A DNA stretch of 64,000 bases from NCBI RefSeq assembly GCF_016132445.1, contig NZ_CP046056.1:992001-1056000 (forward strand), read 5' to 3'. The DNA is from Venatoribacter cucullus. Lineage in GTDB: Bacteria; Pseudomonadota; Gammaproteobacteria; Pseudomonadales; Oceanobacteraceae. Numbering within the stretch: the first letter of the stretch is position 1; each line of letters begins with the position of its first letter. The notes under the pieces were generated by a model that ran no database searches, had not been told where the DNA came from, and was given only the letters and a program-made list of their open reading frames with translations. The position numbers and the translations under genes are program-made. This document shows, in pieces, positions 7,205 through 56,519 of this stretch.

Positions 7205-7714
7205 TTATGCTGGCGGGGTTTGCCACAATTCGCCGTAACGGTCGCGGTGGCTTAAGTACAGACGCAGGTCGAACTCCAGCTGGTGATAATCCGGCTCCAT
7301 ATAGCAGCACAGCTGGTAAAAGGCCTTGTTATGGTCTTTTTCGCGCAGGTGCGCCAGTTCGTGCACCACAATCATTTTTAATAAGGGTTCCGGCACGCGG
7401 CGGAACAGCGAGGAAATACGGATTTCTTGTTTAGCTTTCAATTTGCCGCCCTGTACCCGCGACACAAAGGTATGCAGCCCCAGTGCATTGTTAATAACGT
7501 GGATTTTGTCGTCATAGATAACCTTGCTGATCGGCGGTGAGCTGCGCAGATGGGCATTTTTCAGCGCCATGGCGTAATCGTACAGCGCCCGTTCGGAGTT
7601 CAGGCTGTGCGCCTGCGGGTATTTTTTCAGCAGCAAGCCGGCGGTTTTACCGGCGTCGAGCAGTGCCTGCGCCTGTTGCTGCAGGTTGGGACTGTAACTG
7701 CTGAGGTAATTCAT
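7205..7714 (-). CDS. YgjP-like metallopeptidase-domain protein
   Basis: The 169-residue protein has the zinc-metallopeptidase signature VVHELAHLREKDH (HExxH plus a downstream His) and the C-terminal PDYHQLEFDLRLYL segment typical of the YgjP/DUF45 (M48-like) family in Pseudomonas relatives. Substrates of these cytoplasmic proteins are unsettled. I chose the ATG at 7714 (MNYLSSYSP) because homologues I recall start with a similar L-x-Y-L-S-x-Y segment; ATGs at 7729 and 7738 are in frame, and none has a strong ribosome-binding site. There is no signal peptide. The upstream gap is filled with repeats, so its promoter probably lies in or beside them. Confidence 0.85.
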   Translation of the reverse strand: MNYLSSYSPNLQQQAQALLDAGKTAGLLLKKYPQAHSLNSERALYDYAMALKNAHLRSSPPISKVIYDDKIHVINNALGLHTFVSRVQGGKLKAKQEIRISSLFRRVPEPLLKMIVVHELAHLREKDHNKAFYQLCCYMEPDYHQLEFDLRLYLSHRDRYGELWQTPPA

Positions 7715-7750
7715 GGGGGCTTTGTTCATGGCTGGCATTTTACGGCATAT

Positions 7751-7819
7751 GGGTTGGCGCTTGCTACGCCATCGGCTTGACGCTTGCTGCGTTGCCGGCT
7801 TGACGCTCGCTGCGCTGGA
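7751..7819. repeat. Three 23-bp tandem repeats
   Basis: Units at 7751-7773, 7774-7796 and 7797-7819 share the core GGCTTGACGCTTGCTGCG with a few changes (the first is the most diverged). They lie just upstream of the YgjP-like gene and directly abut the ACGGGAGACGC motif. Confidence 0.75.
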
Positions 7820-7840
7820 CGGGAGACGGGAGACGCACAA
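7818..7840. repeat. Dispersed ACGGGAGACGC motif
   Basis: GACGGGAGACGGGAGACGC at the left of this segment is nearly repeated at 47436-47454 (one difference, GGAGGCGGG for GGAGACGGG) between the aroA part of tyrA/aroA and cmk. ACGGGAGACGC also occurs in reverse complement within 8155-8167. Three occurrences in non-coding gaps point to a dispersed intergenic motif. Confidence 0.6.
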
Positions 7841-7852
7841 ACATGCAGCTTG

Positions 7853-7875
7853 GCCAGCCTGGCGGCTGGCTTTTT
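7853..7875 (+). terminator. Terminator-like hairpin at edge of the 200-bp repeat
   Basis: GCCAGCC (7853-7859) pairs with GGCTGGC (7864-7870), followed by TTTTT (7871-7875), which has the form of an intrinsic terminator reading rightward. No rightward gene precedes it. The equivalent position of the second repeat copy also carries hairpins plus TTTTT, so this end of the repeat is structurally conserved though its sequence differs. Confidence 0.5.
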
Positions 7876-8070
7876 GCGGCCTTCGGCCGCTGGTATTGCA
7901 AGGGGAGGTATCCCCTTGCGAACCCCTCTGGCCCGCGTCCCAGCTGATCCTCGTTTACCAAAGCCAATAACGCATACGCGGCCAAGGGGCATCCATGCCC
8001 CTACCCGCTCGTTTGGAATCATCCAAACGATGCTACTGGCTTTGGCAAACTTCGGGCTGGCCCGAATGGG
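7871..8070 (+). repeat. 200-bp structured intergenic repeat, copy A
   Basis: This 200-bp sequence recurs in reverse orientation at 55089-55288 without gaps and with about 14 differences counted by eye. It folds on paper into consecutive hairpins: GCGGCC/GGCCGC (7876-7890), CAAGGGGA/TCCCCTTG (7899-7918), then a junction closed by CCAAAGCCAAT...GCAT (7958-7975) and ATGC...ACTGGCTTTGG (8030-8045) that encloses AGGGGCAT/ATGCCCCT (7985-8002) and CGTTTGGA/TCCAAACG (8010-8029), and finally TTCGGG/CCCGAA (8051-8066). The differences between copies fall mainly in loops and joints. The frame through it changes many residues between copies, arguing against a protein. Confidence 0.85.
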
Positions 8071-8111
8071 CTGTTGCAACCCCCAGTGACGCGAAGGTGT
8101 TGGATGCGTCC

Positions 8112-8201
8112 ACAACGCGCGCTGAACGCCCAACCCTCAACCCTGAACGACTAATAGCGTCTCCCGTAAAGCGTCCGGCCTCAAGCTTCAAGCGTCCGGC
8201 C
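8112..8201. repeat. Short repeats overlapping the 3' end of finR
   Basis: Bases 8112-8129 are the exact reverse complement of 5790-5807. AAGCGTCCGGCC occurs twice, at 8169-8180 and 8190-8201; the second copy lies in the last codons of finR, so its final residues (R-P-D-A) are encoded by repeat sequence. A reversed ACGGGAGACGC also lies here (8155-8167). Confidence 0.65.
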
Positions 8202-9081
8202 GGCACATCTCAATCCACGCATTGATCCCGGCGCTGCGGTATTTTTGTTTATGAATAATCAGATACAGCTGGCGGCTGAAGTCACGTTGCGGTGCGGTAA
8301 GGCGGATAAGGCTGCCGCGTTTGAAGGCATCCCCCAGGGTTATCAGGGACAAACAGCCGATGCCGAGGCCGGCTTCCACCGCGCGTTTAATGGCTTCGGT
8401 GTGTTGCAGTTCCAGGGTGACGTGCAGTTCCGGCAGCAGGCCGTGCAGGGCGCGGTCGAAGGCCTGGCGGGTGCCGGAACCGGCTTCGCGCAGAATCCAG
8501 CGGGCGCTGCGTAAGTCGGCATCGGTCAGAAAGCCCTGTTGCTGCTGCCGTTGCGCCAAATTGTCGTGCGGGTGGCAGAACAGTGCCAGTTCATCGCGCC
8601 GCCAGGGAATGATGTCCAGGTCGGGGTGGTTCAGCTCACCTTCAATCAGGCCGATATCCAGTTCGTAATTCAGCACTTTGTCGGCGATTTGCCGGGTATT
8701 GGCGACATCCAGTCGTACTGTGGCATCGGGATGGGCAGTCATGTACTGCGCCATCATACCCACCGCCAGGTAGTTGCCGATCGACAGGGTGGCGCCGACA
8801 TTCAGCGGTCCGGCTTCGGCGTGACGCAGCAGGGCCTGTTCAAAGTCCTGCGCCTGTGCCAGCAGGGCTTCGGCTTTGGGGCGCAGCAGCCGGCCCTGTT
8901 CATTCAGTTGCAGGCGTTTGCCGGCGCGGTCGAACAACTGCACACCAAACTGATGTTCAAAGTCTTTCAGCGCACTGCTGGCCGCACTTTGCGACATGGC
9001 CAGCTGGTCGGCGGCGCGGGTCAGGTTTTGAGAGTGGGCGATGGCAATAAACACCTGCAGTTGACGAAGGGTGTAGCGCAT
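8188..9081 (-). CDS. finR: LysR-family regulator, FinR-like
   Basis: This 297-residue LysR regulator has an N-terminal winged helix (about 1-60; MRYTLRQLQVFIAIAHSQNL... and MSQSAASSALKDFEHQFG) and a C-terminal effector-binding domain. The start, the LFDRAGKRLQLN wing and the divergent orientation to an fpr gene all match Pseudomonas FinR, which activates fprA and responds to superoxide and sulphite. The 123-bp divergent gap contains candidate operator repeats. The extreme C-terminus runs into intergenic repeat sequence. The family is certain; the FinR assignment is inferred from context and the N-terminal sequence. Confidence 0.85.
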   Translation of the reverse strand: MRYTLRQLQVFIAIAHSQNLTRAADQLAMSQSAASSALKDFEHQFGVQLFDRAGKRLQLNEQGRLLRPKAEALLAQAQDFEQALLRHAEAGPLNVGATLSIGNYLAVGMMAQYMTAHPDATVRLDVANTRQIADKVLNYELDIGLIEGELNHPDLDIIPWRRDELALFCHPHDNLAQRQQQQGFLTDADLRSARWILREAGSGTRQAFDRALHGLLPELHVTLELQHTEAIKRAVEAGLGIGCLSLITLGDAFKRGSLIRLTAPQRDFSRQLYLIIHKQKYRSAGINAWIEMCRPDA

Positions 9082-53945: not shown

Positions 53946-54638
53946 ATGAATCAGCAGTTAACCTTATCTGTCGCCATTCGCGACGATGCCCGTTTTGCCA
54001 ACTATTATGCTGGCCCTAACGAGCAGATCGTGCAGGCCCTGCAACAGCAATGGACGGTGCGCGGCGAGCCCTACATTTATTTATGGGGCAGTCCTGGCAG
54101 CGGTTGCAGCCATTTACTGCAGGCCTCCTGTCACTATGCCGAAGGGCTGGGGCATCAGAGTGTTTACCTGCCGCTGGATGAGCTGGCCGATTATGGCCCG
54201 GCGGTGCTGGACGGTATGGACCAGTTGCCGTTGGTGGCACTCGACCATCTGCAGGCCGTGGCTGGCCGTTCGGACTGGGAAGAAGCGTTATTTCACCTGT
54301 TTAACCGCATCCGTGACCGGCAAAGTCATTTGCTGATTGCGGCTGGCCAGCCGCCGGCGGCGCTGGGTATTCAGCTGCCGGATTTACTCTCACGACTGAA
54401 CTGGGGGGTAAGCTACGCGGTGCAGGAGCTGGATGACAACGACAAAATACTGGCGTTGTTGTTGCGCGCGCGCCGCCGTGGGTTGAACCTCAGCGACGAC
54501 GTGGCGCGCTTTATTCTTACCCGCGGCCCGCGGGATATGCAGGGGTTGTTCGATTTGCTCGAACGGCTGGATGCGGCGTCGTTGGCGGCGCAGCGGAAGC
54601 TGACCATTCCTTTTGTTAAAGCAGAGCTACAGTGGTGA
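53946..54638 (+). CDS. hda: DnaA regulatory inactivator Hda
   Basis: Hda binds the sliding clamp and promotes hydrolysis of DnaA-bound ATP, preventing over-initiation. The 230-residue protein has the N-terminal clamp-binding sequence QQLTLSV (pentapeptide QL-x-L-x), a Walker A-like GSPGSGCSHLLQA in which the usual Lys is replaced by Cys (Hda proteins commonly have Arg here), and the AAA+ lid with RGPRDMQGLFDLLERLD. Hda normally works with ADP and without a canonical P-loop Lys, so the change is tolerable. The stop is followed directly by the hairpin block. Confidence 0.93.
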   Translation: MNQQLTLSVAIRDDARFANYYAGPNEQIVQALQQQWTVRGEPYIYLWGSPGSGCSHLLQASCHYAEGLGHQSVYLPLDELADYGPAVLDGMDQLPLVALDHLQAVAGRSDWEEALFHLFNRIRDRQSHLLIAAGQPPAALGIQLPDLLSRLNWGVSYAVQELDDNDKILALLLRARRRGLNLSDDVARFILTRGPRDMQGLFDLLERLDAASLAAQRKLTIPFVKAELQW

Positions 54639-55088
54639 CACTGCCAGCCTGCCGGGCTGGTTTAGCTGCCACTGCGTGGCAGCTATTGCGGGGCTCCGCC
54701 CCCGCGCCCCGATTGCGAGGAACTTATCCTCGCGCTCCAGCTTGGTTGCCTGCCATCCATGGCGGCAACCCTTCGGGCCATCATTTTGTGATGTCACAAA
54801 TTGCTCCTGCAATTTGTTGCGCTGTATAGCACGTATTTCCTCATTCACCGTCATTGCCTGCGGCCACGGATCGTAAGGCGCGTCGTGCGCCACGATCCTC
54901 GCCCGGTCCATCCGGGCGGGCCTGTCAATGACGGTTCATTTTGGCGTGCTATAGGCGCGGATAAAACCGCAGCGGCTACGCCGGTATGGCTTTATTGAGC
55001 GCGCTACGCGCGCAAAACCAAAACCCAAATTTGATTATTTCCGGCCGCAGGCCGCATTAGCTTTTCAAGTTGCTGCTGTTTTGCCCGG

Positions 55089-55288
55089 CCCATTCGTTCC
55101 AGCCCGAAGTTTGGCAAAGCCAATAGCATCGTTTGGATGACTCCAAACGAGTGGCCAGGGGCATGGATGCCCCTTGGCCGCGTATGCTCAATTGGCTTTG
55201 GTAAACAAGGATCAGCTGGGACGCGGGCCTTAGGGGTTCGCAAGGGGATACCTCCCCTTGCAATACCAGCGGCCGAAGGCCGCAAAAA
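55089..55288 (-). repeat. 200-bp structured intergenic repeat, copy B
   Basis: This is the reverse-oriented partner of 7871-8070, the same length with about 14 substitutions. Relative to copy A, one A-C mismatch in the long-range stem becomes A-T here, the AGGGGCAT/ATGCCCCT stem is extended by GGCC pairs, and the last hairpin (TTCGGG) is weaker. The conserved stems carry no substitutions. Confidence 0.85.
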
Positions 55289-55308
55289 GCCGTCACGCAG
55301 TGACGGCT
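55284..55308 (-). terminator. Terminator-type hairpin after aspC
   Basis: On the minus strand AGCCGTCAC (55308-55300) pairs with GTGACGGCT (55296-55288) and is followed by TTTTT (overlapping 55288-55284). It lies 30 bases past the aspC stop and is well placed to end its transcript. It is also the inner hairpin of the right end of the hairpin block. Confidence 0.75.
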
Positions 55309-55337
55309 CAACCAGCCTGTAAGGCTGGCCTACAGGC

Positions 55338-56519
55338 TCAGCTCAGCGCTTTTTTGATGCGCGCCAGCGCGTCTTCCAGCACTTCCATGCTGGTCGCGAA
55401 CGACAACCGCATATAACCCGGCGTGCCGAACGCCGAACCCGGCACCAGTGCCACGCCAGCTTCCAGCAGCAGTTTTTCGGCGAAGTCGATGTCGTTGTCG
55501 ATACCAGCCTTGGCCATCGCTTCTTTCACGTTCGGGTAAGCGTAGAACGCACCGTCAGCTGCAATGCAGCTGAAGCCCGGAATTTCATTCAGGGTTTTCA
55601 CCACATAGTCGTGGCGTTCTTTAAACGCTTTCACCATTGGCGTAACGCAATCACGGCCGCCGTTCAGGGCTGCTTCCGCGGCAATCTGAGAGATGGAGGT
55701 CGGGTTAGAGGTGCTCTGTGACTGCACTTTGGTCATGGCGCTGATCAGTTTCACCGGGCCAGCTGCGTAGCCGATGCGCCAGCCGGTCATGCTGTAGGCT
55801 TTGGAGACACCGTTCAGCACGATGGTGCGGTCGTACAGATCCGGGCACACGGTCAGAATGTTTTCGAAACCGAAATCCGCCCACCAGATGTATTCGTACA
55901 TATCATCGGTGGCCACCAGTACGTGCGGGTGCTTGCGCAGCACGTCGCCCAGGGCTTTCAGCTCGTCGGCGGTGTAGGCCACGCCGGACGGGTTGGATGG
56001 GCTGTTCAGTACCACGATTTTGGTTTTCGGGGTAATGGCGGCATCCAGCTGGGCGGCGGTAATTTTGAAGCGGGTGCTTTCATCGGTATTCAGAATCACC
56101 GGTACGCCGCCGGCCACTACCACCATATCGGGGTAAGACACCCAGTAGGGCGCCGGAATAATGACCTCATCGCCCGGGTTGATAAAGGCCAGGCTCAGGT
56201 TAAAGAAGCTCTGCTTGCCACCGCACGACACCAGAATCTGATTCGGCTCGTAGCTTAAGCCGTTGTCATTTTTCAGCTTATTGATAATGGCTTTTTTCAG
56301 GCCAGGGGTGCCATCCACGGCGGTGTACTTGGTGAATCCTTTATTAATGGCTTCAATAGCGGCCTGTTTGATGTGCTCGGGGGTGTCGAAATCCGGCTCG
56401 CCGGCGCCCAGGCCAATAATGTCTTTGCCGGCTGCTTTCAGTTCGGCAGCCCGTTTGGTCACTGCGAGGGTAGGGGAAGGCTTGATCTGTTGCACGCGAT
56501 CAGACAGTTGCAGGTCCAA
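55338..56519 (-). CDS. Aspartate aminotransferase (class I, subgroup Ib)
   Basis: This 393-residue pyridoxal-phosphate enzyme interconverts aspartate and oxaloacetate with glutamate/2-oxoglutarate; subgroup Ib members often also act on prephenate or aromatic substrates. Motifs are LGAGEPDFDTPEHI, VLNSPSNPSGVAY, the catalytic Lys in LNGVSKAYSMTGWRIGYAAG, and MRLSFATSMEVLEDAL at the end. The start is probably TTG at 56519 (L-D-L-Q-L-S-D-R-V), where relatives start M-x-L-Q-L-S-D-R-V; GAGGAT is 6 bases upstream. No in-frame ATG lies nearby. A long frame continuing to 56987 overlaps uvrB and is not part of the protein. Confidence 0.93.
   Translation of the reverse strand: MDLQLSDRVQQIKPSPTLAVTKRAAELKAAGKDIIGLGAGEPDFDTPEHIKQAAIEAINKGFTKYTAVDGTPGLKKAIINKLKNDNGLSYEPNQILVSCGGKQSFFNLSLAFINPGDEVIIPAPYWVSYPDMVVVAGGVPVILNTDESTRFKITAAQLDAAITPKTKIVVLNSPSNPSGVAYTADELKALGDVLRKHPHVLVATDDMYEYIWWADFGFENILTVCPDLYDRTIVLNGVSKAYSMTGWRIGYAAGPVKLISAMTKVQSQSTSNPTSISQIAAEAALNGGRDCVTPMVKAFKERHDYVVKTLNEIPGFSCIAADGAFYAYPNVKEAMAKAGIDNDIDFAEKLLLEAGVALVPGSAFGTPGYMRLSFATSMEVLEDALARIKKALS

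Follow-up and report, generated by a model that had tools for sequence, protein, structure and literature searches.

The hairpin-rich repeat present in two inverted copies in the 64,000-nucleotide stretch of DNA analysed here (subsequently named the window; positions 992001-1056000 in a genome that forms a single contig of 2,827,114 bases) is probably an arm of a palindromic, non-coding mobile element, which in sister species takes a MITE-like, terminator-seeking form with TwoAYGGAY modules. The copies had been predicted to match in inverted orientation, gap-free and with about 14 differences: aligning 7871-8070 with the reverse complement of 55089-55288 gave no gaps and exactly 14 differences (93% identity), and blastn of copy 1 against copy 2 yielded 93% identity across 204 bases. 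In a blastn search of its own genome the window repeat reached E = 6.5e-84, far beyond chance. The fold of 7848-8090 gave z values of -7.3 (DNA, plus strand) and -7.9 (RNA, minus strand), and as good a fold was seen in none of 200 shuffled sequences. Substitutions, expected to cluster in loops, were indeed rarer in paired positions (7 in 140, compared with 7 in 60 unpaired ones), a trend that is not significant (Fisher p = 0.13). The original prediction was right in part: the finding is real and larger than first stated. The limits given to the unit were too narrow, as the repeat runs past both ends and copy 2 is part of an element of ∼700 bp at about 54641-55335.

Read from its end, the element contains short-loop hairpins, a hairpin (P0) with a CCCCTC tract, a module with a long arm (P1 and P2) and two hairpins, P3 and P4 (the Y module), a centre, and then the same parts in mirror order. 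A covariance model of P0 and the Y module, R1, was built from 25 modules. The features of both copies are the following, in window coordinates:

7850..8072, plus strand: copy 1, a single arm from the end hairpins to the Y module read on the plus strand (repeat coverage; L001 1542-1766)
7850-7869: terminator-like end hairpin of copy 1
7895-8072: match of copy 1 to covariance model R1
7205-7747, minus strand: YgjP-like gene, left neighbour of copy 1
8188-9081, minus strand: finR, right neighbour of copy 1
7898-7919, plus strand: P0 hairpin GCAAGGGGAGGTATCCCCTTGC, with third tract CCCCTC at 7923-7928 (together 7898..7928)
7933..8067, minus strand: match of copy 1 to RF01731 TwoAYGGAY (38.0 bits, cut-off 43)
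7978..8008, minus strand: P3 hairpin of the Y module, with loop AUGGAU on this strand (alignment and consensus structure)
8009..8030, minus strand: P4 hairpin of the Y module, with GGA in the stem instead of the loop
54641..55335, strand given as '.': copy 2, a complete element: a facing pair of Y modules with arrays of end hairpins
53946-54638, plus strand (hda), and stop at 55338, minus strand (aspC): convergent neighbours of copy 2, which fills the gap
55087..55264, minus strand: the arm of copy 2 first noticed, a type A Y module with P0 (R1 match; genome 1047087-1047264)
54793..54950, plus strand: opposite arm of copy 2, a type C Y module of the same shape and different sequence (R1, E 1.5e-17; genome 1046793-1046950)
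55288..55308, minus strand: end hairpin AGCCGTCAC-GTGACGGCT with TTTTTG behind it, resembling a terminator of aspC

At 7797-7835 copy 1 is flanked by another repeat (GACGCTCGCTGCGCTGGACGGGAGACGGGAGACGC with related words), distinct from the first, which recurs near other elements (L017 1657-1691, L024 2793-2830).

The reading as a dispersed multi-hairpin repeat with kept structure was borne out by the rest of the genome, where further copies are numerous: blastn with 7821-8120 as query found 45 matches, and R1 found 62 at E ≤ 0.1. When the R1 matches listed were clustered by hand, arms in both orientations lay at at least 28 places, so that the two window copies are not special as possible sites for an inversion of the 47 kb between them. 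Among the matches listed, 20 of the 28 places have a pair of modules in (+,-) order, separated by a few hundred bases, and none has the opposite order; by R1, copy 1 is a single arm and copy 2 a pair. R1 also picks up facing pairs in sister genomes. Unit lengths, estimated from repeat coverage at 24 loci, range from ∼250 to 900 bases and are mostly 600-850. The Y module occurs in three sequence types (A, B and C) with one shape; for types A and B (25 modules), both sides are changed in 18 of the 42 consensus pairs, covariation that alone is no proof of selection because palindromes can self-correct during replication. Some copies carry hairpin-rich inserts, either 58 bases beside P1 or 72 bases in the P3 loop, and hairpins are swapped and nested. 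The centre may contain a 6-7-base microsatellite; in L013, L014 and L018 the facing modules are separated by simple tandem repeats, (CCAAAAA)n and (GGGTTTT)n among them. None of 24 elements contained a gene according to the coding scan, and we rejected a coding function, since the open reading frames across the repeat are mechanical readings of palindromes.

Further observations concern the surroundings of the elements. A double hairpin of the end arrays, ACCGCCATGGATGGCGG..TTTTGCAGGAGCAAAA (L014:1333-1382, L051-L061), is 87-98% identical across the genus and occurs beyond it, in further genera of both the family and the order. REP-like words of the GTAGGAGCGGGCCATGCCCGCGA type, an identification we presume, and TTCAGCCTGAGCCTGTCGAAGG stand beside elements, for example at L079 880-1037. 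A tandem glycine riboswitch adjoins one hairpin cluster in genome G002 (L077 1076-1298). The present genome measures 2.83 Mb at 99.6% completeness; the eight congeners are much larger (3.9-4.4 Mb).

The repeat had been thought not to be tied to one gene context. More than one context does occur, but the choice is not arbitrary: all 26 resolved elements adjoin the 3′ end of a gene, and none lies between divergent genes. Gene orientation was taken from a simple hexamer coding scan, which read 11 of 24 elements of this genome as convergent, 12 as tandem and none as divergent and left one unassigned; with L080-L082 added, the 26 resolved elements comprise 12 convergent and 14 tandem sites (L010 and L083 stand outside the count). 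The gaps among the 58 genes of the window are 37 tandem, 10 divergent and 10 convergent. The edge of the element mostly lies <30 bases from a stop codon, and the stop-to-stop position would follow from the fact that entry between genes or just behind them harms neither neighbour. For 20 stretches of G003 the same scan gave 10 convergent, 5 tandem and 4 unassigned sites and one possibly divergent site (L173), a reading that depends on a weak gene call (score 13, threshold 12). Some elements of G322 and G212, genomes with unreliable gene calls, lie upstream of a gene; of the apparently divergent sites there, L193 and L204 turned out to have their tRNA and ABC gene on the same strand, and L199 and L200 may be divergent.

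Relatives do not carry the copies at the same places. In all eight congeners hda adjoins aspC across a gap of tens to <200 bases that lacks the element and holds an ordinary terminator (A-tract, hairpin, T-tract); here the gap measures 700 bases and that terminator is gone. The gap between finR and the YgjP-like gene measures 13-40 bases in four congeners, those where the two were found together, compared with 440 bases here. A terminator-like hairpin stands within 100 bases of 25 of 34 element-facing gene ends in this genome, as against 8.4 in shuffled sequences, and the hairpin-rich ends, many of them terminator-like, probably serve the neighbouring genes. The same count in G003 was 2 of 16 (0.4 in shuffles), so that the G003 elements do not obviously restore termination.

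Evidence for movement of the element comes from the sister species. Elements L156 and L172 of G003 have empty counterparts in G008 with flanks 92-96% identical, and at the filled sites the target is duplicated as TTATTCTGAACG and GGCTATTAGCC. Further duplications are CCCTGCGCCAT (L135), CGCGATTGCGG (L158, L137) and CGGCATCACGC (L130); the sister-species element is ∼680 bp long and its target duplications 11-12 bp. We rebuilt the empty sites of 11 elements by removing one copy of the duplication and joining the flanks. Six of them (L172, L158, L130, L137, L159, L147) then showed a clear A-tract/hairpin/T-tract terminator; among the other five L157 and L161 are weak and L156, L135 and L140 show none. 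Duplications are imperfect in L161, L159 and L147, while L157 and L140 showed no duplication. The target rule of IS231A is GGG(N)5CCC, which the 11-base targets of the sister-species elements resemble.

The terminal inverted repeat of the sister-species elements, at least 17 bases long, is shared with an insertion sequence of the IS4 family: CACTGCTGTCCCACAGT ends both these elements and a 1272-bp insertion sequence with an IS4 transposase. The terminal repeat CACTGCTGTCCCACAGTNTG was found in at least 120 stretches of the species collection, mostly in Gammaproteobacteria and in a few other phyla, with Thalassolituus marinus, Alcanivorax and Zhongshania among the carriers. One carrier, Alcanivorax nanhaiticus, has it at both ends of a 1272-base unit (L236 6070-7341) that encodes a transposase of the IS4 family, 382 residues long (NF033592, 247 bits against a cut-off of 115; Pfam DDE_Tnp_1 and DUF4372). 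Units with a CACTGCTGTCCCACAGTNTG end carry 9-10-base duplications in 7 of 10 cases, an eleventh unit, L256, being left out since it is the same TwoAYGGAY element as L140. That an IS4-type transposase moves the element into terminators is well supported for the sister species, and we infer that it acts in trans. One gene gap holds the element in inverted orientation in G003 relative to G008 (flanks 94-96% identical, element 95.3% over 572 bases), which reflects either a flip or two insertions; this small inversion was the only one seen. Another G003 element is interrupted by 1.2 kb (L164 2218-3453) and is intact in G008 (L126), with flank matches that overlap by 4 bases; the insertion is probably an insertion sequence. 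In the genome of the window, no convincing target duplication was seen at the 23 elements examined, and their end sequences differ from the terminal repeat of the sister species. We infer that these copies have the same origin as the sister-species elements.

The Y module itself resembles a known RNA family. At the gathering cut-off, Rfam models identified only a tRNA in the window, while a looser threshold gave matches to RF01731 (TwoAYGGAY) in several loci. Copy 1 can be aligned with this model from end to end, linkers UAG, AG and CG included. Its score of 38.0 bits (genome-wide E 2.0e-4) and the best score in its own genome, 39.8 bits, both fall short of the gathering cut-off, 43 bits. At E ≤ 1 all nine genus genomes match and none of 14 control genomes does, and the cut-off was passed in four of the nine, all of them sister genomes, by at least 30 modules. 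A sample of 274 genomes of the class, searched with stricter filters, gave RF01731 matches at E ≤ 0.001 in 17 and scores above the cut-off in 13; at these settings the present genome had no match. From four RF01731-positive genomes, 16 of 20 loci were scanned; all 16 were over the cut-off, and 7 of these have an outward-facing pair within ∼300 bases. The RF01731 matches compared are Y modules on the centre-to-end strand. The module is best described as a diverged, sequence-replaced homologue of the candidate RNA TwoAYGGAY. Among the papers listed by the literature searches, no title or abstract presents TwoAYGGAY as a repeat or MITE.

This kinship raises the possibility that the repeat is first of all a functional RNA family, in which GGA loops bind and titrate CsrA/RsmA in the manner of sponge RNAs of the CsrB/RsmZ type, the many 3′ UTRs form a distributed decoy and mobility is secondary. 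We regard this as doubtful, though it accounts for several observations. GGA loops are strand-specific: among 35 modules of this genome GGA lies in or next to the loop in 49 of 98 hairpins of the centre-to-end strand and in 0 of 97 of the other, and in congeners (48 of 53 R1 matches) the values are 79 of 116 and 2 of 123. The centre-to-end strand has the better RNA fold in 34 of 35 modules, csrA is present in all nine genus genomes, and PMC4333381 proposes RF01731 as a CsrA-binding RNA. On the other hand, neither window copy yielded a promoter-like site, and read-in from the neighbouring genes gives the non-GGA strand of the first module. Furthermore, in type A modules the P3 loop AUGGAU retains GGA but P4 has it in the stem, so that one of the two loops is lost. 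The double hairpin of the end arrays carries its loop GGA on the strand opposite to that of the Y module; with this, and with GGA hidden in type A P4, a CsrA reading of every hairpin was discarded. An RNA function of the modules would be an attractive addition to the mobile element.

It is unlikely that the repeat is in essence a DNA-structure element, a cruciform or intrastrand triplex that makes replication pause or controls supercoiling where genes converge. The argument for it comes from P0: its third tract reads CCCCTC where the hairpin is GGGG/CCCC and CCTCTC where it is GGAG/CTCC, and hairpin and tract agree at 36 of 37 pattern-matched places. The 37 are counted after removal of one duplicate row, and broken tracts such as that of copy 2 (CCCCTAA) are outside the count; the exception is one row of L041, and L028 has a mutated 5′ hairpin arm. 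P0 and the third tract could possibly fold into an intrastrand triplex in a register known from Holder et al. (PMC4666352), who also describe the triplex motifs of E. coli as intergenic and partly arranged in inverted pairs. However, the agreement amounts to few independent events, because there are only two linked alleles of one 30-base stretch; the tract is broken in copy 2, and DNA structure is unnecessary for explaining the position or the spread of the element.

A REP-type bacterial interspersed mosaic element moved by a RAYT (Y1 transposase) is quite improbable. The repeat is palindromic and extragenic, lies at 3′ ends, forms inverted pairs and has the presumed REP-like words nearby, but Y1_Tnp (PF01797) has no match in its own genome (5 of 14 controls match), a result on which we rejected RAYT/REP mobilisation, and the 11-12-bp target duplications and IS4-family terminal repeats of the sister species do not fit it. 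Least probable of all is that ordinary terminators grew where they stood, through replication slippage and template switching and with no transposition: the close filling of gaps with no visible target duplication and the swapped, nested hairpins would agree with it and it may apply to part of the end arrays of this genome, but the same sequence stands at at least 28 gaps, and for the sister species it is contradicted by exact empty sites and 11-12-bp duplications.

The mobile palindromic element that we favour would when complete be a pair of Y-shaped multi-hairpin modules, turned towards each other on either side of a short centre and closed by arrays of end hairpins. In the sister species it behaves as a MITE-like unit with IS4-family terminal repeats that duplicates 11-12 target bases on entry, and these often make up the loop and the inner part of the stem in a Rho-independent terminator. 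Its ends may terminate transcription in vivo, and its modules may bind CsrA. More speculatively, TwoAYGGAY in Gammaproteobacteria may mostly be an arm of such a mobile, terminator-seeking palindrome: IS4-type transposition would set facing pairs in terminator loops where genes converge, and the pairs would then do the work of the terminator and supply many transcript 3′ ends with CsrA-binding hairpins, turning a selfish element into a genome-wide post-transcriptional decoy in which stems turn over while loops and shape persist. This extended proposal is tentative, and we hold it to be possible rather than probable. If true, a database RNA family would have to be re-filed as part of a mobile element, an insertion sequence lineage would use transcription terminators as a safe harbour between genes, and the modules would provide a natural series of hairpins with replaced sequence and conserved shape. 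Whether bacterial MITEs spread CsrA-binding sites over 3′ UTRs would become a testable question.

Several known systems invite comparison. The sister-species element resembles MITEs of the IS4 family in having insertion sequence terminal repeats of at least 17 bases, 11-12-bp duplications, no gene and many copies; it differs in its long inner palindromes with RNA-like modules, its preference for terminator loops and, in the genome of the window, other ends. With REP/BIME sequences and the insertion sequences that target them it shares the nature of extragenic palindromes at gene 3′ ends, and insertion sequences of several families including IS4 (ISRm22) target palindromes according to PMC1525189. 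Unlike REP/BIME, the element described here comes without RAYT, measures 600-850 bases, contains three-way modules and in the sister species duplicates its target. The BOX, RUP and SPRITE repeats of pneumococci belong to a different organism, and their sequences are presumably unrelated to this element. According to PMC10969869 they are likewise MITE-like repeats, some terminator-like, that insert into one another. The triplex motifs of E. coli combine purine/pyrimidine tracts with a matching third tract and are intergenic, sometimes in inverted pairs (PMC4666352); their sequence is another one, the register is of class II as opposed to class I/III for P0, and P0 is embedded in a larger element. 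In shape the Y module resembles RF01731 (clan CL00106), with the same three-way form, the linkers and two hairpins that have GGA in the loop on one strand, P4 of type A excepted. Sister-species modules pass its gathering score, whereas those of the present genome stay below the cut-off (best 39.8), and here the structure is an arm of a dispersed facing pair as opposed to a single cis-regulatory RNA.
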